Below, piece after piece: positions 35,824 through 57,100 of a stretch of DNA of 64,000 bases (positions are counted from its first letter, which is position 1; the number at the start of each line of letters is the position of its first letter). Made by a program: the position numbers and the translations under genes. The notes below the pieces were generated by a model. It made no database searches, was not told where the DNA came from, and saw only the letters and a list, made by a program, of their open reading frames with translations. The DNA lies in NCBI GenBank assembly GCA_032358165.1, contig JAALGY010000038.1, positions 2,542,001 through 2,606,000 on the forward strand. The letters run 5' to 3'. The stretch is from Diplosphaera chodatii. Taxonomy: Eukaryota > Chlorophyta > Trebouxiophyceae > Prasiolales > Stichococcaceae.

Positions 35824-36674
35824 GGCTGCCCGGGTTTGGCGCCGAGTCACAGGTGTGGGTCAGCAGCCCACGCTGCCGGCTGCAACACCAATGCTGCTGA
35901 CGGCTGCTGCTCGAGACAACGGGAAGGGTCGCATCAAGAGAATGCATGCAGCATCGGTGCTGTCCTCTGTGAGTCACTCAGTTCCTGACATGGCAGGGCG
36001 CTGCATGCTGCCCCATGCCGCAGCAGGGCCTCGAACCCGGGTCTGCCGGATGGCAGCTGGGTGGAGGCTACCTGATAGCAGCAGTTAGACTGCCGGATGG
36101 TGTCAATTGCCTTGGAATCACATTTGACAGGACAATTAATAGGCTGCGACAGGGATGTGAACTTCCGACAGCAGTTGTTTGCAAGGGCCGCAGATCGAGC
36201 AAATTCAAGCTGCTTCAGTGGTTTCTGCTGCCTCGAACTGCCCAATGCGAGCCAGTGCATTGCCACGAGCACTTGCAGCCTGTGCATGGTGCAAACTGCA
36301 GTGTCCAAGACGCTGTGCTGCTACAGGGCGGGGCAACCTTCAGCAACACAACCTTGTGATCAGCAGCGGCAGGCGGCATTCTTTTGCATGCAGACCTTGT
36401 TGAAGTTGCGGCTCGAAAAACATCTCAGCTTCCATCGCCCAAAGCACGCACGAAAGCACTGTACAGGCGTGCTCATACAGGCCGTTGCTCCTGCAGCATT
36501 CTCTGGTTGCGCTGCTAGGATCTGCAGCGAGGGGCTGGCAAGCTGGACTGCCTAAGTACCTCCTCATGTAGCCGCGCAGCATCTCTATTCCGCAAGATCA
36601 GCCCCTTGCAGCGCATCCCACAGCACAGACACGCTGTGCCGCAAGCATTCCGCAGCTGTGCACAGCACCACATC
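35824..36674. promoter_or_regulatory. Head-to-head intergenic region between VPS15 (-) and lipid phosphatase (+)
   Basis: The two start codons are 851 bases apart and divergent, so both promoters must lie here. No TATA box was found at a fixed distance from either start and no coding frame was supported. A shared bidirectional promoter is inference only. Confidence 0.5.
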
Positions 36675-37982
36675 ATGGCTGTTGCGCAGCAGGACACCAC
36701 GCAGACGCCTGGCGAACAGGTGTCGTCGCTGGCGGCGCTGGACAGGTCCCTGTCCACCGCGCTGTTCCGCAACCTCGGGGCGCAGATCCCGAGGCCGGCG
36801 CTCATGCTGTTTGAGCATGCCGGCAATGGCCTGTTCTGGATCCCAGGTGAGCCTTCAATCTCTGCAGATATGTCTCATCCCTTTCGATGCCGCGGGTCTG
36901 TGCTTGCATCATACTCAGACGCCACAGCAGCGCATCACCGCTGCCGCCGCTGCCCTGATCCGCCTACTGGCACGACCTGCAGGCGCTCTGGCGGTGTGGC
37001 TGCTGCCGGGGCTGATGCCATATCAGCGCACGCTGGTGGCCAACCTGCTAGCGGGCTTTGTAGTGGACATCATAGTGGTCGGCACAATCAAGGGGACTGT
37101 GCGCAGAGGGTGAGCAGTGGGTTTGCCCAATCCTAAGGACTACTTCAGCGCTTGATGCACCCAGCTGTTGAGAAAGTCAGCGGCGGCACCGATTATGTCC
37201 TGCGCACCCGCAGAGCAGAGTCCGGCAGTATGACTTTGACTTCATGCTTCCCAGGCGGCCCGTGTACAATAAGGAGGATGACTTTGTGTTGGTGGTTTCG
37301 GTTGACAAGTATTCTTTCCCCAGCGGCCACGCTTCCAGGCGAGATCCTGACCAGTCAAATTCACTACTTAGATGAATCGCGATTGCACAGCAATGTATAC
37401 AGGGTCGGATCATCAGACACCGCCATGTTACTCTGCAGGGCGTCCTTCATTGCATTGTTTGCGGCGGTGTGCTGGCACGCCGCCTCCAGGCCGCTGGCGG
37501 CGGCCGTGCTGGCGTGGGGCGCCGCCACCGCCGTCAGCCGCGCGCTGCTGGGGCGGCACTTCCTGGGCGATGTGGCCGCGGGCTGCCTCGTGGGCGCCGC
37601 CACGACCGCGGTCATCACTCGGGTGAGTGCAGCACCAAGATGTAAAGGCATTGAACCGTACTATCACTGTTGAGCTTGGGCCCGTTCACAGCCTCCAACC
37701 TTTACAATGAGCGGTAACGGTCTCATGTGAGCAGCGGCTAATGGGTGCCTAGCAGTGACGGTTCGTGGTATGTGGCAGGACATTCTTGACTGTCTTGTTG
37801 TTGATGGTACCGGCAGTGGCACCAAACGTCAGGTCTGATGTCTGATACTGCAGGGTTCGTGGGACATCGGCACCCCGCTGCTGCCGGAGGCCCTGTCGCA
37901 GCAGTGGTACCATGCAGCAGCGGCCTGGCTGTCGGGCCTGCCGTTTGCGCCCCTGCAGCAGCTGTACGGGCATCAGCTCTGA
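36675..37982 (+). CDS. PAP2-superfamily lipid phosphatase (polyisoprenoid/presqualene diphosphate phosphatase type)
   Basis: Predicted to dephosphorylate a lipid (di)phosphate at a membrane. Five exons (36675-36846, 36983-37109, 37255-37338, 37439-37622, 37854-37982) give 231 aa. All three phosphatase motifs are present: C1 as KGTVRRGRPVYNK, C2 as SFPSGHAS, C3 as SRALLGRHFLGD. The pre-motif region (LDRSLSTALFR, LFEHAGNGLFWIPG) matches the PLPP6 branch rather than classical LPPs. Hydrophobic helices lie around ALAVWLLPGL, LVANLLAGFVVDIIVVG, ASFIALFAAVCW and LAAAVLAWGAATAV, and after C3. Two splice choices matter. Exon 2 starts at 36983, the only acceptor giving the right phase. Exon 3 ends with AG|GCGAGA, a GC donor, because no GT donor joins PSGHAS to the next exon in phase. 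Confidence 0.87.
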
Positions 37983-38400
37983 CATCTGATTGCCAGTACA
38001 CGTGGAAGTGAATGAGGGTATATCTGGTGATCGGTATCGGCGCCGAGCCTCTTGTCCTTTGCGGGGGGGAACTGCAATGCCGCTTGTCCCACCTGTTGAT
38101 GCAAGTTTGAAGTGCGCATGGCAGACTACACGCCCCTCCATCATCAAGGACAGCATCCGGCTGCCGCATAGTTTTCAGTACAAGCTGGAAGCTTTGCATG
38201 CTGTACCGCAGCTGCCGCATCCGGCCATATGTCCCCTTGGTCTTGGCCTCCTGGGATCTACAGCACTACCCTCATAGCAACTTGGGATGCGTAGTTCATA
38301 AGGGCGCTGGAGCGAGCTGCAGCACACTCGGGATCTATAGTCTAGCGCAACTTGGTCCTTGGATCTGCATGCAGCCGAAACCCAGTCTGCTCGATCAGCC
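37983..38400. other. Intergenic, phosphatase 3' UTR and FCP1 5' flank
   Basis: No gene is seen. The last 100 bases before 38401 probably contain the FCP1-like 5' UTR. Confidence 0.4.
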
Positions 38401-41400
38401 ATGATGGCCGTGACGGAGCCGGAGCCCGCGTCACCGTCAGCGTCAGACAGCGACGGCCTTCTGGCGCTGCTTGAGGCGGAGCTGAACGAAGCAACCTCGC
38501 AGAGCGGCAGCGGAGGCGATGGCAACGGGTGCGCCATCCTGACGCGCCATGTAGATATCAGAGAGCTTGCCGCATCAAGGCACGGCCAGGCCCAGCAGCG
38601 TATTCAGAGCACGATTACATCATGGAACGGTGCATCGACGGTGCTGCAGTGAACGCCCCGGCAGCCAGCCCGTCACTCCAGCATCCAAGCGGCGCCGTAT
38701 CGCCGGATCACCCCCCAGCGCAGATGCAGCGGCACAGCCTGCCTCGCGGGACCAGCAGCAAGCAGACGGGATGCAGCATCAGATGCGATCAGGCGCATCT
38801 CAAGATGCAGCATCAGCAGACCCTGGACTGGGCGGCGGACGCACGTCAGGCGCACTGGAGAGTGGGGGAGCGCCCGGCAGCGGGGCTGCGGCTGCTGCGG
38901 CGGCTTCTGCAGGCAGCGGCGCGGCCTGCCCGCCGCACCCGGGCTTCATGCGCGGCATCTGCATCCGGTGCGGCACGGCGCAGCCCGAGGAGGCCGACCC
39001 GGCGGCGGAGCCGGGCGTTGCCCTGAGGTGACTTGCACGCACCGAACAGCAAATGGACAAGTGCTGGGAGCGCATTCAGAGCGACAAGGGTCAGTGAGTG
39101 CTTTCACGAAACGGCTTCCACGCAGAACTTGGCCAGCAGGTAGGTTGCCGCACCCACCGCCCTGCCGGCCCGCAGCTCCGCAGCTGTCAGTCCGGAGGGA
39201 CGCTGGGTGCAGGTACATCAAGGCGGACTTCCGGATCAGCGGCGCGGAGGCGTCGCGGCTGCGGGCGGCGAACCTCAAGCGGCTGCTGGCCGCGCGCAAG
39301 CTGCTGCTGGTGCTGGACCTGGACCACACCCTGCTCAACTCCTGCAGGTGTGGCCGCTGCTCGTCGGCAGAGGAGGCGCAGATACACCGACAGGCAGCTT
39401 GGCTGCCACCACACAAATTGATTTTGACCAGAAACCCCGAGAATGGGAATTGGCGAGGAGATGTTTAGGCATTCAGGATGGGCTGGGTGTAGATTCCTCG
39501 ATGTGGATGAGGCGACGGCGCCTCGACTCGCCTCGGCGATGGAGGCGCAGGACGCAGCTGACCCCACCCTGTACCACCTCCCGCACATGCAGGTGAGCGC
39601 CGCTCCAACCGTCCTGCTCAATCTGCGGACCCACGCTCGTATTCCGTGACAACGGTACTGCAATCTACGCGACAGCCTCAAGCATCTACAGGCACCGTCT
39701 GTATGGTTCCTCACACAGGAGACCATCTTGCAGACTGCGCTGACGTAGGCTGTTGCCCTGCTCCCCTGCAGATGTGGACCAAGCTGCGGCCCGGGCTGCG
39801 CGCCTTCCTGCAGCGCGCGGCGCAGAACTTCGAGCTGCACATCTGCACCATGGGCGACCGGGACTACGCGCAGCAGATCGCGGCGCTGCTGGACCCCACC
39901 CGCCGCCTGTTCGCCGAGCGCATCATCAGCTCGGTGCGCCACAGTCAAACCTAAAATGCTGCAAGCCACGAACACAACACCATTCTGTCCCCGTTTTCCA
40001 CGGCACAACAGCCGTGCTCTCGGCAGATGGCGCTGCAGCGGCGGGCTGAGCACCTGCAGCCGCAGTCAACCTCGCCTTTGCTGGTTGTGGCATCAGCCAG
40101 CGCCCGTATGCTACTCAATCTCTCATTCCCCCTGGTACAGGGCGACACCACCGAGCGGTCCATCAAGGACCTGGACGTGATGCTCGGGGCGGAGTCGGTG
40201 GCGCTGATACTTGACGACACGGCGGGCGTGTGGCCGCGCCACCGTGGCAACCTGCTGCAGCCGCCGCGCTACATCTACTTCCCCGCCGACCACAGCCGGT
40301 GGGTAGGCGCTGGGTTCGGACCCACGTTCCAGACCCTTCTTCGTGCACAACAAGCAACAGCATCAGCACACGTTTGTGTCACGCTGTCTGTGTGTACCTG
40401 CTACCGTTGCTGTGTAAGTGGCACACCCTGTATGCGGCCACTTGCAGGTTCGGGCTGCCGGGGGAGGCACTTCTGAGCAGGGGGGAGGACGAGGCGCCCG
40501 GCACGGGGCTCCTGCCGCAGCTGGAGGTGACCCCCGGCTCCATGCCTGAAGCTGGCTGTGCTTTGCTGCGGACCAGTCAGTTGCGCCTGCAGACTGTCTG
40601 TCTGGCTGGTTGTGTCGCAGATGTCGTGGTACCCTGGGCCACGGTCTCCGTCCAGACTGTAGGTCTTCTTTTCTATGTGTGAGTTTTGGCGGTGTCGATA
40701 AGGGCTGTGTCTCCCGACTCAGTTGTAGCCACGACCTGCTGCAGGTGCTGGAGGCGGTGCACGCGCTGTTCTTTGCCGTGGGCGACCCCGGGGCGCAGGA
40801 CGCGCGGGAGCTGCTGCAGGGCATGCGGCGGCGGGTGCTGCAGGGCTGCACCCTGCTGTTCAGCGCGGTGTTCCCGCGGCTGGCGGTGCCTGAGCAGGAC
40901 TTCCACTGGCAGCTCGCCGAAAAGGTGCGTGCCCAATGTGCAACTGGCCTGGGTGCTCCATCCAGCTCCAGCAGCGCTCGAGCGCTTTGGCATTGTGTTC
41001 ATCAACCATACTGCTGTCCAGCAGCGTTGCAATAGCGTACAGCTGGCCGAGAGGCTGACACGCTGGGTGGTGATATTGTCCTCAGAGCTGCAAGCTCGAG
41101 ACCCAACATGAACCGATGACTCGTACCCGAAAACATCTGGGTGTGTCCCTTGCAGCTGGGCGCCTCCTGCACAACCGCTACAGGGCCGGGCGTGACGCAC
41201 GTGGTGGCTGCGCAGCCAAATACCGACAAGGCCCTGTGGGCGCGCTCGGCCGGCAAGCACATCGTCTCGCCCGCCTGGCTGGTGCAGTCGGGTGGGGCCG
41301 CTTACAAGCAACTGGCGCTGTTGCACATGAAGCACTGCAGGGGTGCCAAGATGACGTGCAGGCTTGCTTTCATGGGGGCTGACCTCCAGTTGTAAACAAA

Positions 41401-41694
41401 GTATAGGGGCTGTTACGATTTAGTGCAGTGCAGGGCACTTGGCAGGCTGCAGCCGCTGCCTTCCATGCTGCAGCGGGGAAGCCGCAGGCCTCAAACCCTC
41501 CCCGGGCTGCTCACTCGCTGGATCGCGATGCAGGCCACATGTGGAAGCGGCAGCCGGAGGGCGACTTCCCTGCCAGCAGGCCGCAGGCGGTGGCACCACC
41601 GGCGGCGGCGGGGCAGCCGGGCGGCCCTGTGTCAGATGTGGACATGGCTCTGGCGGCGGCAGGCGGCGGCGCTGGAGCAGCAGATACCAGCTGA
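38401..41694 (+). CDS. FCP1-type RNA polymerase II CTD phosphatase with BRCT domain
   Basis: Removes phosphate from the RNA polymerase II C-terminal repeat in the nucleus so that polymerase can be recycled. Ten exons (38401-38528, 38650-39027, 39213-39347, 39493-39592, 39772-39933, 40141-40298, 40448-40526, 40745-40924, 41156-41291, 41534-41694) give 538 aa. After a disordered N-terminus comes HPGFMRGICIRCG. The FCP1 catalytic block follows, with LVLDLDHTLLN (nucleophile Asp about 204, general acid Asp about 206), WTKLRPGLRAFLQ, FELHICTMGDRDYA, and ILDDTAGVWPRHRGNLL. A BRCT domain reads GVTHVVAAQPNTDKALWA, then HIVSPAWLVQSG joined to HMWKRQPEGDFP across intron 9. The layout matches plant CPL4/fungal FCP1. 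If intron 9 is retained, the reading ends at 41395 with a different BRCT tail. M1 or M4 (ATGATGG) may be used. Confidence 0.88.
41391..41395 (+). terminator. TGTAA motif inside FCP1 intron 9, overlapping an in-frame stop
   Basis: If the donor at 41292 is ignored, translation continues to a TAA at 41393-41395 that is itself part of a TGTAA poly(A) motif. This may permit a shorter isoform; see findings. Confidence 0.35.
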
Positions 41695-42418: not shown

Positions 42419-45400
42419 ATGGAGCGGGCGCGCTCGGTGCGCGGCTCCGACTGGTTCGCCTCCATGGACGCCACGCACGGCCACCTGACCGCAGAGGAGA
42501 TGACCCCGCAGGTCGGAGTTGTTGTGCTTGACTCACGACAGATACTGCAACATGCGTTGCCCCTTGTCTGGGCAGCTGTGCGCACATGTCGGAGCATCCG
42601 CATCATCACCCACGCATTATTCAGGCGCCCAGGCGCCCTTGCATCAGCTGCACTGGGGTGGGACTAAGCCAACGTCATTGCACTGCCCCGTGCAATGCAG
42701 GCGACGGCAGAGTTGAACGCCGGCGCCGGCCCCAGGCCGCCGCCGCCGCCGCAGCCCGAGGCCGCCGCCGAAGCCGCTCCGCTGCCGAGCGGGCACATCC
42801 GGCCGGATGGGGTGATCGACATCCGGGTCGACGCAGGGCGCGGGTCGGACGACGGCCACGCCTCCCTCGGCAGCACGCCCTCCAGCATCCAGGTGCGTTG
42901 CGCAAGCAGTGGGCTGTCCAGGACCGGTCCACAGGGCTGCAGAGGCAATGTTCTGAAACACCAACACCAGCAGGGTGTTGTGCGGACGCTGGATGGTTTG
43001 GCCAATGGGCTGCGCATCAAACTCTGGCGCAGCACATTATCGAAGCTGTCCACGGTTCCCACAACGCCATGTGTGTACATAGCACTGGTTCCTGGTGTCC
43101 AGTCATCAGACGTCGTGCCAAACCAACGGCCAGTGCATTCATGACACTGCAATGGACCTGCCCAGGCCTTACATGCTGGCACCCAGCCGCGCCCAGCATG
43201 GGCGGACAGCCGTGCGGCGCATGCGCCCACTGGCTGCTGGGCCACCTGAGCTCACAGACACCATGTCACTGCGCGCGAGCCGCCTGAGTTGTGTGTATCT
43301 CTCACACCCTTGTCAGGTGGCCACGCCGCTGCGCAATGAGCTTGCGGCGACCACCGCCAAGACGCTGCGCCAGCGCCGCTCGTCCGCGGGAGGCGCCAAG
43401 GAGAACGGCGCCGGCGGCGCCGTGCGCATCGACGGCGCCGATGAGGACGACCCCGACTGGGGCGCCACAGCCCAACGCACTGCCTCAGGTGCCAAGTTGC
43501 TGCCGGCCAGGGCTTGATGGAGGGCAATTGCCACAGTCGTAGTTGCCCAGTTGGAGGTTGCATCAACCTTGCCCGACTCTGTTGCATGCCGTCGCCATTT
43601 TGGATGTGCTATGAGCAGACAGTGTCGATGTGCTTGTTGCAGGCATGCCGCAGCCGACCATCACCCGGCACTGGAACTGGTGGGCGTGCGGCGCCTATAC
43701 GCTCATGTGGGCGGCGCTGGTCTTCTACTTCTATGTGCGCATCAGGTGTGTACCTATGATTACGGGGTGTACCCATGATTACGGGATGATCAAGCGTGCA
43801 CTGATAACCATTCTGCACACTCATACCCCAGGCTTTGCACAGCACGATCCTGGTTGGAAGGGCAACTCGTCTCGATGCTCATGTCCGAGAGCTTGATGTG
43901 TGATGACGTCATATGCTTCCAAGTCGATGACCATATCGTTTGGACCTGCCTTTAGGTACACGATCCCGGTGAACTATGTGGGCTACTCCATCTTCATCCT
44001 GGTGTTCGAGCTGGTGGGCTCCTCCAACACAGTGCTGCAGGGCCTCTACCTGCTGCGCCGCAAGGAGTACCACTACGGTGACAGTCCCGCAACACAACAC
44101 CCCGACTCTTGCATACCGTATACTGGGATGGGCGACACACCTACCGATCGATGCACAACATGATGATACAACACTCGACTCCAGCTTATAATGTGACACC
44201 TGGCACCACTGCTGCAAATGAACACCATACGGGCGGGGATGCTGACCCTTGTGGAAGCATCCTGAGATGTTTCCTTGGATGCCCTGCAGTGCCGAATGTC
44301 AATGGCCGGCTGCCGCTGTCACGCCCTTTCCACGTGCGCGTCATGCTGCCCTGCTACCGCGAGAGCCTGGAGCTCATTCAGGTCTCTCTTTACCTCAGGC
44401 ACCTGCTGGCTGAGGCGCCACAGCGACTCGCCTCCGCCGTAGTGTTGCTGCGGATCGTGCTGGCCAGCAGAAGAGTGGCTTCAGCAGCAGACGGCCATGC
44501 TATGCTACAGGTAGCACGTGCGTCTGCCTGTGCCACTCAGAGACTAACTGAGGCTGCTGTGCTTGTGTCGTAGGTCACTGCATATGCAACGATCCGTGCG
44601 GAGCTGCCTGCCGGATGCCACCGCACCGTGTACATCTGTGACGATGGCAAGGATCCGGGTGAGGAAGATCAGCCTTCCACAACTGTCGGTGTGCCCTCTG
44701 ATGCATGCAAGTAGGTCGTTGGATATGCTGCTTGTGCTTCACGCAGCACATATATCGATGACTTGGCGAATTCTGCACAGCAGGCAGCACTGACGAGACA
44801 GGCAGCTTGCTGTGATTCTTGCAGCCAAGCGGCAGTGGGTGCTGGACGTCAACAGCCCGGAGCTGGTGTACGTCTCGGGCCGCACGCGCCCCGCCGGCGA
44901 GATCAACGGCAAGTCGGGCAACCTGAACAATGCGCTGACGCTCATCTACCCGCCCGGCGTGGACATCCCACTGGACGAGGTGAGGTCTTCAGAACGTGTA
45001 GCTTATATCTATATATCTGATGTCTGTGTGTGCTGACTGTGGGGTATCTTCTCTGACACCATACGTAGCTCTGAGGACCGTTTGTTCTGGAATCTTGCAC
45101 GGCATTCTCAGCCAAGCCGTGCATGTGCTGCAGGTGGTGGCGGTGTTTGATGCGGACCAGGTGGCCAAGGAGAACTTCTTTGTGCGCACGCTCCAGGTGT
45201 GGCAAATGATACAGTAGTAGCGATGCTCTGACTGCTCGTCTTGATCACTCTTTTAAAAGCACCGAGGCCCTGCACAACCAGGTTGACCTGCGGTGACCAC
45301 TGCTGTGTGTTTTCGGCAGTGGATGCAGGATGACACGACAACCATCGTGCTGACGCCGCAGTACTTTCACAACTTCAACCCGCGTGCCGACATCTGGAAC

Positions 45401-48400
45401 CACAAGTCCTCAGCATACTGGGACGTCATCCTGCCAGGTACCCAAACTGGTATATTCTGGCATATCTGCTGACTGCAAGGTGTACCTGGTGTCGTTGTGA
45501 AAATACATCTGCAGTGGGATGCAGGTGTTCATCGTCTCATGAATAATGCAGCACGCAGCACGTCAAGATGCCCCATTGTGAACCCTGCTGCAGGGCAGGA
45601 TGGGTACAACACGGTGTGTTGCACCGGCAGCAACTTCCTGCTGCGTGCATGCCATGCGGCTGAGGTCGGCTGGTTCCCAACCTTCACAAGTGAGTGTCTC
45701 AGCCGTATACCTGCAGTGTACAGGCAATGTTGTGATCATGCTGCACACTCACATGCGTAGGGTTTCAAATCATCCTTACGTCAGCGTCACGCCTGATGTG
45801 CGTGCACGTCAGCACAGGGTAGATCGAGCTGCAACACTGCCAAAGTATGTTGCAGTGCCCTGCAAACTCGCCCTGTATGGACGCGCGCCTGCCGCAGTCG
45901 TGGCGCTCAGACAGACATTCAAATTCGCATGCTTGCTGCCCTTAACAGGCTTGCACCTTCGTAACCAATATAGATCCCCTGCTGAAACTGCAGTCCCTGG
46001 GTAGTTGAGCTGTCTGCCGCTTTCCGCAACATGCCTGCCCCACCCCGTAGTGGGGGAGGACGTGGCGCTGGCGCTGGAGCTGCAGTGCCGCGGCCACGCC
46101 TCTTGCTACCTGCACGACTGCCTGGCGGTGGGGGAGGTGCCCACCTCCATCCGCGCCATCTGCATGCAAAAGTCCAGGTCAGCACTGTGCGAACAGCGTA
46201 CTTGTGAATGGTGCATACAGAGTACGTGTAGAAGTTTGCCTGAAGCGTTTGTATGATGCAGATGCCTGCATGCAGGCAAGCCTTTGCGCATTGCTTACGG
46301 ATGCAAGGCATCACATAAACCTGGCGCCAGTGCTGCTTCGTCAAATCCGTGCTGACTTCTGTGCTTGCAGGTGGTGCAAGGGCGGCATGCAGATCTGCTT
46401 CAACCAGCGCAAGTGCCCGCTGCTGCGGCGGGAGCTGCCGCTGTTCCAGCGCCTGCTGTGGGCCACCGGCTACTGGGTCGGTTGCCTAGCCGTATGCAAG
46501 CCTGTAGACTGTGCCCGTAAGGAGCCGTGCAACCTGCAAGGCCATGCTGGTCTCAAGACATATGTGCAGAGGGTCTGATGCTGAAGGCTGTGTGCTGCAG
46601 GGGTACTTCAGCGACTGTTTCTGCACGCCAGTGAGTGGCTGATGTGCTGTCTCGGGATGGTTGTCCCTGCTCATGCAAGCTGCAGTCTGTGTGAAGCCAA
46701 GAAACTATGCGGTGCTGGTAAGGCTGGAGGATTAGCTGGCTGTGTGGCTCGCAGGTGTTCTACCTGGTGCCTGTAATTGGCATTTGCTTCAACATCTTCC
46801 CCGTCAACAACTCCTTCTGGTTCGCGCTGGCGTTCACTCTGTACATCGTCATGATCCAGGTCTGCAATGTGACATGCTACGCGATTGATGGCACACTCAG
46901 TGATGCAGTGGCTCACCGCCAGTGCCTGCATTTCTGTTGCACACCACACGTAGCGGCCTTTCACGTAGATCTGCGTATGCCCAGCAGGAGCGCTGGCGTT
47001 TTCAGCACCCTACAATCGTGACACCGTCCTTGGCACGCAGGTGATCAGCTTCTGGGCGCCCAACTGGGCGACGCAGCGCGCGCTGTGGTTCAGCTCCGTG
47101 GCCAACACCAACCTGTGGTTCACCTTCGCCAAGGCCATCTACTCCGTGCTCAAGGGCAAGTTCCTGAACAGGTGCAGCAGTGGCCGGTGGTCCACTGCCA
47201 GCTACCTTCATGGAATGACCCTGCATCTGTGTGGGGACGACGACAGCCATCCCTTGCCAGATTTTGCAGGTACATCATGTCGGGAGGTCAATCGACATAG
47301 CAGAAAACAGCAACCTTGGATGGTTCATGCAGGCCAGCGGTGTTCAAGGCGACACCAAAGTCGGCGGGCGGCAAGGCGGCCAAGAAGGCCAAGGCGCCTT
47401 CCGCCTTCCGGGACCTGTGGATGCAGGTCAGCAGCATTCTTGTGGCTGAACCTGGTGTGATATCCACTGCATCTGCAGCAGTGAGCAAGGCTGGGCTGCA
47501 TGACTATTTCCTGGAGCTGGTACTTGACCTCCAATGTTGTCCCTGCAGACGCTGATGCTGACGGTCCTGGTGATCGGCTTCCTGGTCGGCATCTGGCGCC
47601 TGGTCATCGACGGCATCCTGCGCTCCACCTGGAACTACAGGCATGCCCTACTCGCACCCTTGCTGCTGTCAATGCTGTGCTGTTTTGCAGCCACAGTCAG
47701 TTGCTTCGACGTTATGCCTGCTGCAGGGTGTCCCTCACCTCACCAGGGAGAACTGCCATTTGGTCGTGTTGTCCGACTCCTTTGCGAGGCGAGAGTTGGC
47801 AGCACAGCAGTTTTGTTGCCTGGCGAACTGGCGAACTCAGGTCGTGCCTGTGCTCAGTGCAGCCTGATCGTCAGCCTGCTGTGGTGCATCTACAACGCGG
47901 TGCCGCCGGTGCTGATGCTGTACTACGCGGGCTTCAAGGAGCACGGCCTCGCCGAGGTGTGCCGCGTGGCGAGCGTCATCACCTTCCTGGCCGGGGCGGG
48001 TGAGCCCTGGAATGTTGCATGCCCCTACACACACAGGCGCAATGGGTTCGGTTGCACTAAATCTTGTCAGCACTGAGCTGCGGCAAACGTGTCACCTGCC
48101 AGCGTTGCCCTGTTGCCAGGTCAATGTTGTGGGTGGGGACGTTGCCGCAGCTCTCTGAACCACTGCATATGCTGTTAGCCGATCAGTTCCATTACAACGT
48201 GCCGCATCCGGCTCTACTGGAGCTTCTGTCCAAAGTTCCAGCAACATGTTCAGCCTAGATTGCCCGTCTGCAGGCGTGATCGCCATCGTGTGGTGGCTGC
48301 GGCCGGAGGTGTACGACTACAAGCGCATCCTGAACGACAGCCTGCTGTTCTATGAGGCACACCGCATTGGTGAGGCAGAGGCCATACACGACGTGTAGGT

Positions 48401-51400
48401 GCACCGACTGAAAATGGGCAGAGGTTGCAGCTGGCACCAGCACCTGCCCGGCAGTAATGATACAAACAGTGATAAACAATGATACAAAAAGCAGCCGTGG
48501 AGGTGCTGAAGCCAGAAGCTCACTCTGCCAGTGTGGCAGCATGGCCTCGCCGGAGCTGGGACACTTGCCTCGTGCAGCCCAGCTGCACCGTCCACATGTG
48601 TCAGCTGGCACACCTGCAAAAGCTGAAGGCAGCTGTGCCCATTGTGCCTGCTGTGACCAGGATCATCTGCTGCCGCAGGGCCGCTGCCGCCGGACAACCG
48701 CATCCCCTGGCGCGGCGGCTCCTTCTTCTCGGATTTCGCCCCGGGGGGCGTCAGCCTGGTCGGCGGCTACATGGACTTTGGCGACTCCTTCGTCAAGTAC
48801 AGCTACCCCATTGCCACCACCGTGAGCTGACCTAGTGCATCATGGCTACACCCCAATTTTGACAAAGGCTGGCATGTGAATGGGCCTTCGGCCTTGTCGC
48901 AAGTTGGGCAGTGTGCAGCTGTTAACATGCGGATATCAGTCGGATTCACATTGCTGAGGCCATGCGAACTTGCAGATTTGTGTGCTGTCAGGTGGCATTG
49001 CTGGCGTGGAGCCTTTTGGAGTTTCCGGACGGCTACCAGAAGGCGGGGCAGGACGTGTATGTGCGGGAGGCCATCCAGTGGGGTGCGCACCAGGCTGCAT
49101 GTCCTGCGCAATGCGGCAGACTGTGCGAATGGCACAACACTGGTATGGTGGTTGATGGGGCAGATCTGTGTGATTCCAGGGGCAAACTACCTGATCAAGG
49201 CGCATATCAGCACCGTTGCCTTCGTGGCGCAGGTCGGCAACAGCGTTGTTGATGGTGCGTCTCCCAGACCCTATTCCTCGAAATCTGGCACAGGGTGGAA
49301 CATCGTACAGCTCGCGGGGCACTGCAAGCACATAGGTAGCTGCTGCCAGTCTGCGATGTGGACAATCATCTGTTGGGATGATCGCTGCAGCACTGCCTGT
49401 TCAGGGCAGAAGTGGACACGGCCAGAGCAGGTCAAAGAGTTCAGACCTGTTTACACGATGGACGCCTCGCACCCAGGTGAGCGCCAGGTCACCGAGGCTT
49501 CACGGCTTTTACACTGCACAGTGAAGCAAGCTGCCTGTGTATCGGAGAGCATAGCCTCCCAAGCGCTGGGAACACTGCACTGATCAGTGACCGCCCGGCT
49601 GATGTGGGCTGCTTGGCACCCTCCTTGACAGTATGGTACCGATGTGCACAGGTGCGGATGTGGTCGCTGCCTCGGCGGCGGCGCTGGCGGCCACGGCGCT
49701 CGCCTTTAGGGGCGACCCGCTGTCGGACACGGCCCAGACGCACGCGCAGCAGCTGTACCAGTGCGTGTCCTACAGCTCTGCTGCACAGTCCTGCACACAT
49801 TCTGATGCACAATCGACGCTTGCACTGATGACTGTCGTGTCAACTGTCCAGATAATATGTCAATCAGCTCTACAGGCTGGCGGTCGGCAACCCTGGGCTG
49901 CACGCCAAGTTCGTGGTGTCCACCGGCGGCGCCATCATCACGCCCTACAACAGCCACAGCTACTTCGACGACCTGGCGTACGCGGCGGCCTGGCTGCACC
50001 GGCTCACGGGGGATGGGACATACCTGGCGGCTGCCAAGAGCTACTACGACTCGCACGTGAACGTGAGTCGTGACTGCTGGGGTTGAGGCGTGCTGCAGCC
50101 GCCTTGCCGCGATCATGCTGAGCAAGCCGACTTGCTGGCATGCAGAACTGCAGTTTCCGGTGGAACGCGCGTTACACGTTGAGCCAGAGGGCACCAAGCA
50201 GTCGCAAGGCAACGACTGTGGCCCTCTCCTGCTGTAGGCATACCCTGGGGCGGGCACCCCTGCGTACATCTACAACTGGGAGAACTCGGGGCCGGCGGTG
50301 GCGGTGCTGCTGGCGAAGGCGACAGACTACCAGGTGCGCTGTGTGCTTGTTTGTGCGTGTGAGATGTCGTTGTGCACAATGCAGGCGCACAGCCACACAA
50401 CAGCTCAGGGCTGGGCATCGCACGGCTTCAGGGGGTTGTCACAGTGTGAACCCTGCCCCAGCGTGACAAAGTCATGTGATACGTGAAGCCCAGGTCCTCG
50501 TGCTATGCTGCGTCACCTTGAATGGCGTTTTGCCGTGCAGGACAAGGCGTACGTGGCGGACGTCAACGCGTTCCTGCACATCTGGCTGCAGGAGAGCGCG
50601 CAGGTCAAATACACGCCGCACCTCCTGGCCTGGACCGCCGGCGGGGTGAGCAGTTCTGCAGGCTACAATGCCCTTTTTGCTGACGCTTGTTTGCGGCCCT
50701 GCATGGGCCAGGAGTATTGGCTGGTGGTCTCTCACAGCTGCTAGATATAAAGAGATCCTAAGCAGGCTGCCCCACTGGTGTACCAGGCATGTGGCACTGC
50801 ACACATTGTGCATTGACGCATACCACGCTTGCCAGTGGGGCGGCTTTTGACATGATAGTCACACACGCGCAAGGCGTTCGACGCTGCACGTGCTGAACGG
50901 GTCGCCTCCTGCTGCTGTGCAGTTCCCGCTGCAGAATGCGGCCAACGCGGCGTGGCTGGCGCGGCTGTGGGGCGGCCGCGACGGCGCCAGCCGCAAGTAC
51001 TCCTGCTGGGCCGAGAGCCAGGTGCGGGGCTGTAACGTTTGACACTGCAGCATGTCACGAGATGCACAGCACCCTCAAACAGCCAACAGATCATCAGGCT
51101 GACACTGTCATGGCATGCTACTGCTGCCTCCAGTCGCATCAGTGATCTTTTCGAGATCTGCTGTATCCTGCACCTGTTCTCACATGCAGGTTACGGTGCA
51201 TCACGCAGCTGGCTGTGCGTGTCATCATGAGTGTCATGCTAGTCCAATGCGTGACGTGTGCCTATCCGCAGCTGCGCTACATGCTGGGGATGCGCAACCG
51301 GGACCACTCGTACGTGGTGGGCACCGGGAAGAGCCCCAAGCGCCCCGGCGATCGCGCCGCGTCCTGCCCCCTGGACTTCAGCGTGGAGTGCAACAGGTCG

Positions 51401-52200
51401 GTCGCTTGCAGGATGCGGTCTGCGGGCATGACAACCTGCTGCCGAAGCTGTGCTGTGTCGAGCCTCCAGCTGCAGTGGTGCTGTGCACGCGGCTCTGGGT
51501 TGTGCTGCCGCAGCGACTGCTTGTGGCACTTGATACTCTTGGCGACTGATGCAAACGTGCCGAGACTGTCTGCTGCACCCTCAGCAGTCCCTAAACCCTG
51601 TTCCTGCGCGCTGCAGCCTGAATGCGCTGTGGACTTCAGCGCCCAACCCGCACGACCTGACCGGCGCCGTGGTGCGCCCTAAACCCTACACCCTCCCGCC
51701 GCTAGCACCCCCTGAAACGCTCTGGAAAGCAGAACCCTCGCTCTGGCTGTGCATGCCAGGCCAGCAGCAGCACGGTTTGCAGCACGGCAGCCACAGCTGT
51801 CACGCTGCGTGTCAGCTGTCTGACCCCGTGCACCGCGGGCTGACCTTCGCCTTGAGGCTGCGCATCCTCACCATATCCCGGGCTGCCGGTCTGCAGGTGG
51901 CTGGGCCGGACAGGGACGACCGCTATGACGACGTGCGGGCGGACAACAACTCGCGCGTCTGCCTCAACAACAACGCGGCCTTCACAGGTGCGCAACTGAG
52001 ACCCTGAAACCCCACTGCCACCCGCCATGCCAAGTCCAGCAAGTCTGCGGGTCGCATGCTCCATCAGAATTTCCATGTGGTGCTGTCCTGTTGCTACAGG
52101 GGTGCTGGCGGGCATGCTGGAGCTGGGCGGCGGCCACTGGGCCGACTGCGTGTCCACCCCCGTGGTGTTCTGGCAGACCAACCGCAAGCCGGTCAGCTGA
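42419..52200 (+). CDS. Cellulose-synthase-like GT2 fused to a GH9 (endoglucanase-family) domain
   Basis: 33 exons give about 1185 aa: 42419-42511, 42701-42892, 43317-43488, 43643-43745, 43956-44077, 44290-44381, 44574-44658, 44825-44979, 45134-45196, 45320-45437, 45594-45689, 46051-46177, 46371-46476, 46601-46630, 46755-46859, 47041-47171, 47333-47426, 47549-47640, 47863-47999, 48274-48369, 48679-48821, 48992-49082, 49180-49254, 49405-49476, 49652-49760, 49876-50062, 50238-50333, 50541-50645, 50923-51021, 51272-51396, 51617-51671, 51897-51987, 52100-52200. After a disordered N-terminus and two helices comes a GT2 domain (about 228-508) with all processive motifs: DDGKD (D281), NGKSGNLNN, FDADQV (D344/D346), MGEDVA (D434) and QKSRW (470-474). 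About five helices follow. Exon 20 carries the end of the last helix and the GH9 start (LLFYEAHRIG). The GH9 part (about 705-1185) shows WRGGS, LVGGYMDFGD, ANYLIKAH, VYTMDASHPGADV, AANAAWLARLWGG and AASCP. It probably makes a beta-glucan at the plasma membrane. The exon 18 donor and the choice of ATG are uncertain. Confidence 0.88.
43746..43787. repeat. Short tandem repeat in intron 4 of the GT2-GH9 gene
   Basis: Two near-identical units of about 20 bases (GTGTACCxATGATTACGGG) follow the exon 4 donor directly, the first unit overlapping the donor. Confidence 0.7.
51677..51694 (+). repeat. Interstitial CCCTAAA-type motif in GT2-GH9 intron 31
   Basis: CCCTAAACCCTACACCCT lies six bases after the exon 31 donor. 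A second CCCTAAACCCT is at 51589-51599 in the previous intron. Confidence 0.6.
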
Positions 52201-52813: not shown

Positions 52814-55800
52814 TCAAGCGCTGCTGCCTGGTCCCTTGTCGGGCTCTCGTGGCGGGATCAGCACGAAGCCCGCATCGGCAGCAGCACCGCTGCTGGGCGG
52901 CTGCCGCAAGCAAAGGGCTGCAGCGCCCGCGACATACATCCGCAGGTACCGCCGCCACCCCGCCTTCCCGGTGGCCGCGGCGGCCTCGCCAGCAGACACT
53001 GCTGCGGCTGCCTGCATGTCGAGCTCGGCCGCCGAGGCTGCCTGGACCGCGCCGGCTGCGGCTGCGCTGTTGCCGAGCGCTGCTGTGGCAGGGGGCGTCG
53101 CTCCCAGATCCACCCAGGAGTCATCCGAGTCCGGCGGCTGCCCTGTAGCATCTTCACGCTCATCCTGCAGCACAGACGGCAGCAGTTTCTCAAAACATCT
53201 GGCTCCTTGCATAGCTACGATCACGGTTGGCCGCTGTCGTCCAAGCAGTTGCCATTCAAGGTTTGAGACAGATATAGGCTGACGCCGAGAACACTGCACG
53301 CCAATCTGCGGACCACCTGCTGCTGCTGCTGCTGCCCGGCGGCCCAGGCGGCGGCGTCCCACAGGGGCCGGATGGCACCGCGCTCTGCCGCCGGCAGCCG
53401 GGCCGACAGCGCCGCTGTGCCGCTGGTGTCGAAGCGCAGGTCGAAGTCCAGCCGGGGGTGGTTGAACGTGCGCACCGCCTGCAGCAGGGGGCCCAAAGTG
53501 GGTTTTTAAGTGTGAAACGAGGTTTCGTGTCGCACCGTAGTCTGTCTGTGATGGAAGTAGCCTGCACAGAGTTGCACTCTGCCATCGTGGGGTGCTGCGA
53601 GCATGCACGTTTTCAGGACGCTCGGCAACACGGTACTCAGGTACGCAGAAGTCAGGCGCGCATAAGAGGAAAAAATGTCATAGAGCGCACCGTCCAGGCC
53701 CCCAGGAGGCTGCGGGCGGCCTTGCCGTGCCCGCTCAGCCACAGCAGCGCGGCGACGGCGCCGAACTTCACCGCCGCCAGGACGTCCAGCAGCGCCGCCT
53801 CAGCGGAGTTGCCGACGATGCGCATCTGTGGCGCGGGCACAGCCACACTCGACCGCCTGTCGCTGAGCAGCTCGGAGGGAGGATCCTAAGATGGGTGCGA
53901 CCATCACCTCGCGCCAGTGTCAACCAGTTGCATGTCAGGGATCCTTTGCAGGCGGCCTCGCCCCCAGGAGCGATTGCCAAGCAGGGTGTCCAAGCTGATT
54001 CGATAGCTTCTGCAGCCTTTGAACATGTGTATGCACCCGCTCGGGAAGGTGGCTGCGGAAGGAGCGCTGCGCCGGATAGTCGCTGAAGTACCCGCGCACC
54101 TGCCGAGCAACCGGGCCAAAATGTGCGTTTACAGCATACAGCTTGCTGGGAGCTTGATCTCCATAAGCATATTCCGATCCGACCACGCCCCAGAACAGCG
54201 GCAGCGCGCCTCCTGGTAGAAGCGGCCCGTCACCAGCGGCGCGGCGCTTGTGGAGGTGCCGACATGCAGGATGGGCGGGGGCGATGGCGGCAGCCCGCCG
54301 TCCTGCACGTGAAAGGTGTATGGCCTGTGAGCGCTCACCTGTGCAGCGCATGCAGGCGGCGGATGGTGTCGTCCAAGTCTGAGTCTGTGAACCCGGGGCA
54401 CTTTCACTTCTCGAACACAAGCTTCTGGAACACAAGTCTGAACATATCAACAATTACCCAAGACAGGCCAGCCCATGCAGCCCAGTTGCAGCAGCTGGGC
54501 CTCAGCGGCCGCCGCCGCCTGACCCACCTGTATGACTGCCGCCGCCGCCAGGAGGATCGCCGACGCAACGGCGTCGCCAGGCACCACGTCCATCACCGAC
54601 CCGGGGCGGTGGCGGCTGAAGGTCCAGATGCCGGTGCCGATGGCGAGCGCGGCGCCCGTGGTGCCCGTGCGGTTGCCCACATACCTGCGAAGGGAAAAGG
54701 TTCAGGGTCCGCGGTGGACGGCCCTGCAAGCCATACTGGCTGACTGTTTCAGCGCAACAACGTTGCTGTCTTGATGGTGTCTTGTGGCTGTCTTGTGAGA
54801 ATGTGCAGGACTACTGCATCGGCTGTCAAGGGGAATCGCGTGCTGCTTCAGCAGCGCAGCTCTGTCAGGAGGCCGTCTTGGTGCTGTCTGGAGGCTGTCT
54901 TGTGACAGCGTGCAGGACTACTGCATCAAACGCTCAAGAACCCAGAGTGGTGTGCACCTGCAAAGTGGTCCAGAGGCTGTTCCAATAGTTCCGAATACGG
55001 ACCCTGGTTCCAACACGGTGCAGGACTACAGCACCATGTGGTACAGAACCTGCAACCCATATCGCAGTAATGATGTGTATGGAGTCGCGCACCCTGGGTA
55101 TGGCGCTCCCGCCACGGCGCCGACGATCGCGGGCCGCACCAGCGCCGCCGGCAGCCCTGCGGCGCAGCGCTCCGCCACCAGCCGCTCCGCCAGCCACTTG
55201 CTGAGGCAGTAGGGGTTCGGGAACGCCAGCGCCGCCGCCAGCGCCTCTGCCTGTGCCGCTGTCAGTGAATCGAGGCGCTGTGCGAAGCTGGCGTGCTGTA
55301 TGGGCTGCCCGCCCTCGTCGTACGCTGCATACAGGCGCTCGGCCACCCTGGAGCCCTGCGGCTGGTGGCCGTTGACAAAGGCTGTCGACACGTGCACGAA
55401 TGCCCGCAGCTGCGGCAGCGCCTCTGCCAACGCCAGCACCTCCGATGTTGCATGGTAGTTGTGCCGCAGCGACTCCTGGACCGGGGATGTGAAGCAGACG
55501 GACGCCGCCGCGTGCACGGCCACGCTGCAGCCCGCCAGCCGCCGCATGTCCGCGCCGCTGAGGCCGCACCCCGGCCGCAGGATGTCCCCCTCCACCACCG
55601 CCACCTGCATTAGGGAAACTCAGGCATCTCCGCCTGTGCAAGTGAGATAGAAGATGAAAATGCGCCTGCTTATGCCGACATGCGTAGTCAGCTGCAGCAT
55701 GCTCTGGGGTCCACAGGTGGCCAGTTGGGCCGCTGCAGGGGGTGCCCTGCAGCGCTGGCACGGTGCCTTGCTCCTGCTAAGCCCAGTGCCTGATGGTGTG

Positions 55801-56271
55801 GCGCAGCGCAGCCGCAAACGATCTGGTGCAGCAGATGGGCGCTTCAAGGCACCAAATGGACACGCCAAGCAGACCACAGACCCTGTTCGCTGCACCTTCT
55901 GGCAGTCACAACATGGCGTAGCGGCATGGGAGCGTTGCTGTCCCAGTGATGAGGCCGAGATGCTCGTATTTCCCTCTTTGGTAGCTGATCTTGGGACCTC
56001 GATTGCGCATTCAACCAGCCTCCGCACGCACCTTTTCCAGCACCCCCGGCTGCCCCCACAGCAGGTGGAACAGGCCGCTGTCCAGCAGCCGCCGCAGGCG
56101 CTCTGGCGGCGAGCGCCCCTGCTGACACCGCACCAGCACGTACACCCTGTCCACATCGGGGCACACGCGCAGCAGCTGCTCCAGCACCAGGCTGCCGACG
56201 TAGCCCGTGGAGCCGGTGAGCAGCACGCTGCGGCCGGCGAAGGCGGCGGCCACCGACAGGGGCTCTGCCAT
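52814..56271 (-). CDS. Alcohol-forming fatty acyl-CoA reductase
   Basis: FAR enzymes reduce acyl-CoA with NADPH to fatty alcohol for wax or ether-lipid synthesis. Eight exons (56271-56032, 55604-55093, 54684-54528, 54302-54210, 54099-54037, 53825-53691, 53478-53317, 53164-52814) give 570 aa. The N-terminal Rossmann domain starts VLLTGSTGYVGSLVLEQLLR (GxxGxxG type), followed by VYVLVR, VVEGDIL, VAVHAAASVCF, FVHVSTAFVNG, the catalytic YCLSK (YxxxK) and LVRPAIVGAVAGAPYPGY. The C-terminal part is weaker, with helix-rich sequence (AALLDVLAAVKFGAVAAL) and a WRRYLRMYVAG segment in the place of the FAR_C domain. Exon 4 must end at GAG|GCGCGC, a GC donor, since no GT donor keeps the phase into VRGYFSDYP. 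A broken copy of exon 1 lies at 63165-63755. Confidence 0.87.
54779..54928. repeat. Direct repeat in acyl-CoA reductase intron 2
   Basis: Two copies of a unit of about 43 bases (about 54779-54821 and 54886-54928) share GGCTGTCTTGTGA and GTGCAGGACTACTGCATC. A third partial copy, GTGCAGGACTACAGCACC, lies at 55019-55036 within the same intron. Confidence 0.75.
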
Positions 56272-57100
56272 CGCGGCAGGCGGGCGCCTGCCGCGGGGCT
56301 GGCTTTGCAGCGACTAAAGTGCTGTAGTTGCCAACTAGGGGGCGTTGCAAATGTGATTTCTGCTCATGATGCCATAGCGCAGAGTGCTTGGCCCTATACC
56401 GCAAAAAGATGCAGAGTGTTCCAAGGCTGCACCTGGTGAACCATGCTGTTTCTGCACTTCCACAAAAAGGGTCGCGCAGCACGCAAAGCAAGCAGCAGCA
56501 CCTCAGCAGCACTGCAGGAGGTGAGGCCCTGCTGCGAATGTGTCTGATCTGCACAGCAAATCTCACGCGCTTGCTATCAACCAGGCCATTTTGTACGGGC
56601 ATGGCTGTACTGCAGGAAGCGATGCCAAATGCTTTGGGCCGACAATGGACCGCCTCGGTCTTATACTAGGGGTGGAAGTGAAAGAACTTCTTTGACAAAC
56701 CCTACTTATACGTTGGTCTCAGGACCACGTGAAGGCAACGAAAAGCAACGTTTCCCAAAGGCTTCACCCTTCGTTGTCTGAAGCTTCCTTCAGCAGCTGA
56801 TCACCTGTGATGCAACGTACCACTGCTACCAAGCATATATATGTCCCCAAGCTCAGGGCAACAGCACGTATGAGTGCCCCTTCATCTGCTGATAGATGGC
56901 GCTCGGCCTCCCTGATGAGGCAACTTCTATCAGCCTGAGGCTTTGCAGGCCGCACAATTGCTGCAATATGTACTGACTTCGTTGACACATATGCTGTCCC
57001 AAGAGTAGATGCAACAGTAGGAGTCGACGCTGCAGATCTTGTCCACACGGGTTGCACGAACCTGCTGCTGGAAACCGGGCTGGCGCCGGTTGTGCACATG
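56272..57100. other. Intergenic between acyl-CoA reductase and PA14 gene (both -)
   Basis: Contains the acyl-CoA reductase promoter side and the PA14-gene 3' flank. A long open reading on the minus strand (56764-57363) overlaps the last PA14 exon in another frame and shows no family motif, so it is not called. Confidence 0.45.

Follow-up and report, generated by a model that had tools for sequence, protein, structure and literature searches.

The forward strand of a 64,000-nucleotide stretch of the genome of the green alga Diplosphaera chodatii (assembly GCA_032358165.1, contig JAALGY010000038.1, positions 2,542,001 to 2,606,000; hereafter the window) carries at 42419..52200 a single predicted gene of 33 exons encoding 1185 residues, in which a glycosyltransferase family 2 (GT2) domain is N-terminal to a glycoside hydrolase family 9 (GH9) domain. 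In the splice model the frame opens with the ATG at 42419 and runs for 3555 nucleotides plus the TGA that ends at 52200. Thirty-one of the 32 introns have GT-AG borders, the exception being intron 18 (47641-47862) with GC-AG, and exon 13 was taken to end at 46476 (donor gtcggt), since use of the following gt, 4 bases downstream, disrupts the frame. Both domains are recognized by Pfam on the same translation, with PF13641 matching residues 243-476 (E 5.4e-14), the GT2 models PF13641 and PF13632 together spanning residues 243-549, and the GH9 model PF00759 matching residues 720-1155 over its full length (profile positions 1-444 of 444, E 3.9e-95). Pfam found no PilZ domain in this protein, and eight other large open frames of the window yielded no domain in a Pfam scan.

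The two domains meet inside exon 20. Together with one base of exon 19 this exon translates as GVIAIVWWLRPEVYDYKRILNDSLLFYEAHRI, which comprises the end of the last membrane helix, a short RPEV and then YDYKRILNDSLLFYEAHRI, the usual start of a GH9 domain (the termite protein opens MAYDYKQVLRDSLLFYEAQRSG); exon 21 continues IPWRGGSFF...LVGGYMDFGD. As the GH9 domain starts right after RPEV, there is almost no linker between it and the helix. An earlier sequence-only reading had placed the last helix and the GH9 opening in an exon at 48274-48369, followed by WRGGS and LVGGYMDFGD in an unbroken frame without a doubtful splice, and had expected a protein of roughly 130 kDa. Our splice model reproduces these exon coordinates exactly and gives the same continuation in a single 1185-codon frame, a second copy of the gene on contig C21 has the same 33-exon structure, and the calculated mass is 130.8 kDa. 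Fusion of both domains in one gene is thereby confirmed.

The N-terminal half can be assigned to the processive GT2s of cellulose-synthase type, as it contains DDG, DAD, GED and QKSRW, and it combines a membrane channel with a fold of the BcsA/CesA kind. Across the aligned rows (database relatives carry P numbers) the DDG, the DxD, the Asp of TED, QxxRW and FxxTxK, which we take to be a gating-loop motif, are retained with few exceptions, namely DCD in P0037 and P0079, DSD in P0020 and P0043, FKPSEK in P0019 and a variable T of TED. The GT2 core resembles BcsA by sequence in the window protein and by model in the relative P0002. An AlphaFold2 model of P0002 computed from 41 input sequences (an earlier one from 11 was poor, with a predicted local distance difference test score, pLDDT, of 69.0) shows seven helices with the GH9 fold immediately after the last one. 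Helices 1 and 2 of that model occupy residues 47-71 and 77-100 in P0002 numbering; for this pair a hydropathy scan of the window protein brought only helix 2 (190-208) above the cut-off. With the topology of CesA and BcsA, the GH9 module would lie outside the membrane.

The C-terminal half belongs to GH9 by its full-length sequence match and fold, and it retains the two Asp residues of the catalytic base. However, the general acid Glu is missing and the His-His-Arg motif reads Gly-Asp-Arg (for D54, D57, E412, the His-His pair and the cleft aromatics we assume the roles usual for GH9). No Glu at all is present in residues 1125-1151 of the window protein (GPDRDD to NNNAAF), and the loss of the acid is therefore independent of the alignment. 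The sequence-only reading had proposed that the fusion couples polymerisation with editing or release of the glucan. That proposal presumes a working hydrolase and is improbable for a protein with Arg in place of the acid Glu and Gly-Asp in place of His-His; hydrolytic editing is likely only where the triad of the fused domain is complete, as in P0030 and P0037, whose GH9 domains, judging by their residues, are likely still active.

Loss of catalytic residues is common among the relatives. Of 20 database fusions, 17 are without one or more of the catalytic residues, the complete set of D, D and E is present in two (P0030 and P0037), and P0011 was left unjudged since it spans neither catalytic motif. 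The sequences of P0001, P0020 and P0031 do not reach over the acid position, and the first base Asp is replaced in each; P0001 has an apparent frame shift near its end. All 10 fusion loci found in the D. chodatii genome are without the general acid Glu. In order to compare columns, we set 20 eroded rows against 17 intact GH9s (9 fused, 8 stand-alone). This genome contributed one locus per pair (the window copy, L041, L043, L044 and L046), and its other five fusion loci have identical D, D and E column states. The general acid Glu is found in 17 of 17 intact GH9s and in none of the 19 eroded fusions covered at this column, where R, G, W, N, S, Q, H, A and I take its place (Arg in 8 of 19). Among 111 columns conserved in at least 15 of the 17 intact GH9s, 60 are retained at 80% or more in the eroded rows and 17 drop to 40% or less, including D54, D57, H124, R305, H359, H360 and E412. 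The automatic D57 column reads S in the window protein and in P0001 because of a one-residue insertion; direct reading finds the Asp in both, and the column-based D57 count is two too low. Because the two groups were defined by their catalytic residues, only other columns (H124, H359, R305 and W301) provide independent support, and these shift together with the acid column between the intact and the eroded group. The W301 aromatic is present in 13 of 17 intact GH9s as opposed to 0 of 20 eroded rows; the aromatic columns Y206, W253 and W127 are retained in the latter. Retention of much of the scaffold with loss of the active site is the mark of a pseudo-enzyme, and from these residues the window GH9 half looks like a pseudo-glycosidase. 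Table 1 collects the features of the gene.

Table 1. Features of the fused gene in window coordinates.
Feature	Position	Strand	Basis
Whole gene, 33 exons, 1185 residues predicted	42419..52200	+	In-frame splice model, reproduced on C21 copy
Exons 1-3, N-terminal tail, residues 1-152	42419..43488	+	Splice model; least constrained part
Exons 4-5, predicted membrane helices 1 and 2	43643..44077	+	P0002 model; helix 2 also by hydropathy
Exons 6-13, GT2 glycosyltransferase domain	44290..46476	+	Pfam PF13641/PF13632; BcsA match by sequence
GT2 motif Asp-Asp-Gly	44640..44648	+	Sequence; retained in all rows covering the motif
GT2 motif Asp-Ala-Asp (DxD)	45149..45157	+	Sequence
GT2 motif Gly-Glu-Asp (TED position; Glu-Asp retained)	46053..46061	+	Sequence
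GT2 motif Gln-Lys-Ser-Arg-Trp (QxxRW), split by intron 12	46167..46374	+	Sequence
Exons 14-16, predicted membrane helices 3 and 4, interface helix	46601..47171	+	Hydropathy; P0002 model
FxxTxK gating-loop motif (presumed role), Phe-Lys-Ala-Thr-Pro-Lys	47343..47360	+	Sequence
Exons 18-20, predicted membrane helices 5, 6 and 7	47549..48369	+	Hydropathy peaks 630-648, 660-678, 694-712
Exon 20, junction of helix 7 end and GH9 start, almost linkerless	48274..48369	+	Sequence; same 96-nt exon in C21 copy
Exons 21-33, body of GH9 module	48679..52197	+	Pfam PF00759, residues 720-1155
DFGD, both catalytic-base Asp positions retained	48774..48785	+	Direct reading (GGYMDFGD) against termite DAGD
Gly-Asp replacing His-His of active GH9s	51347..51352	+	Alignment to termite enzyme
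Arg codon replacing general acid Glu (termite E412)	51954..51956	+	Alignment to termite enzyme

Whether the GH9 half is still maintained can be judged from the second copy. On contig C21 the splicing script recovered 33 exons and 1185 codons without a coding indel, and the two copies are 93% identical in exon DNA and 55% identical in intron DNA. The ratio of nonsynonymous to synonymous substitution (dN/dS) between them is 0.118 in the N-terminal tail, 0.037 in the helices and GT2 domain (bootstrap 0.013-0.064) and 0.043 in GH9 (0.026-0.070). With 0.043 compared with 0.037, selection keeps the GH9 half about as strictly as the synthase half, which shows that the module is under purifying selection.

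We searched the 85.6 Mb genome (55 contigs) with both halves of the protein and scored only the best candidates, so the following listing is a lower bound. At least five fusion pairs are present: window/C21, C44:602500/C13:136000, C26/C27, C19/C25 and C10/C3. One further pair (L048/L049) has a GT2 and no recognisable GH9 within the stretch examined, two pairs (L050/L051 and L052/L053) have a GH9 without a GT2 match, and all GH9 matches of the search lie in these loci. The models of L040-L053 were spliced with related proteins as queries and have rough edges, the worst being L044/L045 and L048-L053. Among the GH9 loci found, none with a full triad was seen, and a genome-wide search for the intact pattern G-[FY]-[FY]-D-A-G-D, which is blind to GGW variants, gave 0 matches. 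The stand-alone genes L050/L051 and L052/L053 retain Glu at the acid position and read EAGG instead of DAGD, and on this residue pattern they may be inactive too. The flanks on both sides of the window gene are collinear with C21, window positions 36000-41500 and 52814-56800 corresponding to C21:3462428-3483057 in pieces of ~73-93% DNA identity. All GT2/GH9 loci found occur in pairs, the five fusion pairs having a synonymous divergence (dS) of 0.18-0.55 by halves. This collinearity and pairing suggest a genome made up of two subgenomes or haplotypes that have diverged.

The architecture that the sequence-only reading had singled out is widespread. Two homolog searches, which scored the 7992 and 7994 candidates sharing most words, returned 13 fusions (P0001-P0011, P0018 and P0020) and 7 more (P0026-P0031 and P0037), giving at least 20 proteins with both the GT2 and the GH9 Pfam domain. 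Those that are named all come from green algae (Trebouxia, Myrmecia, Elliptochloris, Apatococcus, Symbiochloris, Chlorella sorokiniana, Chlamydomonas eustigma and Haematococcus), and the domain order is that of the window gene; in P0030 and P0037 the junction is the same as well. P0028 is an open reading frame of a Trinity transcript, with both domains on this single transcript. P0001, P0002, P0007, P0008, P0010 and P0029 occupy contigs of 4.3-5.9 kb as single open frames, and since the counterparts of P0002 and P0007 in D. chodatii (L041 and L042) have 28 and 23 exons in our models, those contigs look like complementary DNA. P0032-P0036 stop just past the junction, apparently cut at an intron, and PF00759 is absent from P0041-P0083, GT2 carriers of which the named ones are bacterial. 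In seven more proteins (P0084-P0089, and P0107 from Botryococcus) an intact and likely still active GH9 lies behind part of the synthase membrane region, with the order and junction unchanged, in sequence without the GT2 catalytic part. A profile of the membrane part matches these proteins with E 1.7e-59 to 1.2e-5 (weakly in P0086, P0089 and P0107) and has no match in five stand-alone algal GH9s.

A GH9 tree built without the active-site columns (and without P0011, P0020, L052 and L053) sets the eroded fusions apart by a branch with a support of only 75/93, outside which fall the intact fusions and stand-alone GH9s. The GT2 tree, from which P0011, P0031 and P0038 were excluded and whose root among the algae is open, shows the same main subgroups, and thus both halves seem to have travelled together. 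Among its eroded fusions lies a GT2-only branch of seven rows (P0012, P0013, P0015-P0017, L048 and L049; support 98/97), and GT2s without GH9 also occur elsewhere (P0014, which is partial, P0019, P0039 and P0040). The simplest series would start from a fusion with active GH9 that lost catalysis, after which one GT2-only branch dropped the domain.

Taken together, we propose that a GT2 with synthase motifs runs via the predicted helices into a GH9 module that, with its acid Glu changed to Arg, serves at the outer opening of the channel as a cap that binds glucan without cutting it, a reading to which we assign a probability of roughly 0.55. The synthase would polymerise glucose (the product presumably being a glucan of this sugar) in the cytosol and thread the chain through its own helices. 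Beside the exit, the GH9 module would likely take the chain into its old substrate cleft and, without a general acid, hold and orient it with no cutting. With W301 lost and Y206, W253 and W127 retained, only part of the cleft would still grip.

Several observations weigh against this proposal. In the hydropathy scan helix 1 of the window protein stays below the threshold, and a false peak at 864-882 falls within GH9. The window pair retains both base Asps, and its loss is thus only partial, whereas most other eroded fusions are without one or both. Roughly half of the 17 columns that were lost (S21, G45, P147, F187, L295, G343, G393 and others) lie outside those that we count as active site. 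Owing to the loss of W301, glucan binding may be weaker or altered. The existence of intact-triad fusions means that the architecture alone is no proof of a dead module, and a GT2 branch seemingly without GH9 means that the domain is dispensable in some lineages. Finally, a 2026 study (PMC13181414) argues that hydrolytic activity matters for polysaccharide synthesis, which is a general argument against a model of grip alone, and Blanc et al. 2012 (PMC3446292) ascribe cellulase activity to the fused domain of tunicates, contrary to a later paper discussed below.

The chief rival is that GH9 is a structural or sorting domain serving complex assembly, folding, traffic or contact with wall proteins, with no binding of nascent glucan. 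The retention of 60 of 111 conserved columns while active-site columns were lost, the absence of the W301 aromatic from 20 of 20 eroded rows and the strong purifying selection are all in accord with such a role, but the module stands directly after the last helix and keeps several aromatics whose placement in the cleft we assume, and we hold this explanation to be doubtful. A module decaying as a passenger and heading for loss would account for the missing catalytic residues and for the GT2-only branch among eroded fusions. It is difficult to reconcile with a dN/dS of 0.043, with the absence of indels and stops and with the retention of all exons between introns that are only 55% identical; decay without function is disfavoured by this selection test, and we regard it as improbable.

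We judge it equally improbable that the module is a working endoglucanase, trimming or setting free the chain of its own synthase. The full-length GH9 match, the DFGD of the window pair and the existence of P0030 and P0037 speak for it, but the replacements of Glu and of His-His, together with a Glu count of 0 of 19 among eroded fusions covered, led us to reject a plain editing hydrolase for the window gene. A new chemistry at the eroded site, be it with another acid, by transglycosylation or on a different substrate, could make use of the two Asps of the window pair and of the Arg that replaces Glu in 8 of 19 eroded rows; since the replacing residues vary, as expected of lost rather than changed catalysis, we give it very little credence. 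As for two separate genes merged by a wrong gene model, the model for this strain was drawn from genomic sequence alone, but the junction lies within exon 20, the C21 copy is built alike and a relative has both domains on one transcript. We therefore reject separate genes or a splice artefact, to which we attach next to no probability. The non-cutting cap remains the reading that we prefer.

An old open question is why cellulose synthesis needs a cellulase such as KORRIGAN or BcsZ. The related algal synthases with an apparently active, an eroded or no GH9, and with a parallel in tunicates, amount to a natural experiment on it; should the eroded domain prove necessary, exchange or removal of that one domain within a single protein would put the non-catalytic half of the cellulase role directly to the test. 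The sequence-only reading took synthase and endoglucanase to be separate proteins in land plants and bacteria. In bacteria, BcsZ is a separate endoglucanase accompanying BcsA, in contrast to the fused GH9 of the window protein. In plants, KORRIGAN1, a membrane GH9 required for cellulose synthesis, works beside the synthase (PMC13181414); unlike the fused and acid-less window GH9, KORRIGAN1 is a separate protein that is taken as hydrolytic. Fusions of the two were already known. Blanc et al. 2012 (PMC3446292) describe, in the accessible part, four GT2-GH9 proteins of Coccomyxa subellipsoidea C-169, with the same architecture of synthase-like domain and GH9 in one protein as here, and report that Chlorella variabilis and Emiliania huxleyi have the synthase-like domain as well. 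They treat the Coccomyxa GH9 domains as cellulases, and in that part of the paper no analysis of GH9 active-site residues was found. Our comparison included the Chlorella sorokiniana fusion P0027, the C-169 sequences lying outside the set. A literature search with subscription papers and supplements outside its scope gave no account of algal GT2-GH9 proteins that have lost catalysis. The fusion is thus known, and the pseudo-glycosidase and the evolutionary series have apparently not been described before.

The tunicate cellulose synthase resembles the window protein in that the synthase comes first and a C-terminal cellulase-family domain has lost a catalytic residue: PMC10334666 (2023) reports that its GH6 domain is without the key catalytic Asp and 'seems functionless' or is likely functionless. 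It differs in that the C-terminal domain is GH6, that of the window protein being GH9 by Pfam, and the tunicate GT2-GH6 and algal GT2-GH9 proteins probably arose independently. We put forward tentatively, at somewhat less than even odds, that algae and tunicates independently fused and then killed a cellulase-family domain while keeping its fold, which would make it a recurrent non-cutting exit chaperone that grips the new glucan. If this is true, what cellulose synthesis classically requires of a cellulase is in part its grip, not its cut.

Two minor observations concern the database relatives. Close to where the GH9 module begins, P0026, P0027 and P0031 contain long insertions with a high content of Asp, Pro, Phe, Ala and Gly. 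P0081 combines GT2 with PF03935 and PF00722, which we take to be SKN1 and GH16, and is perhaps another synthase-hydrolase fusion.

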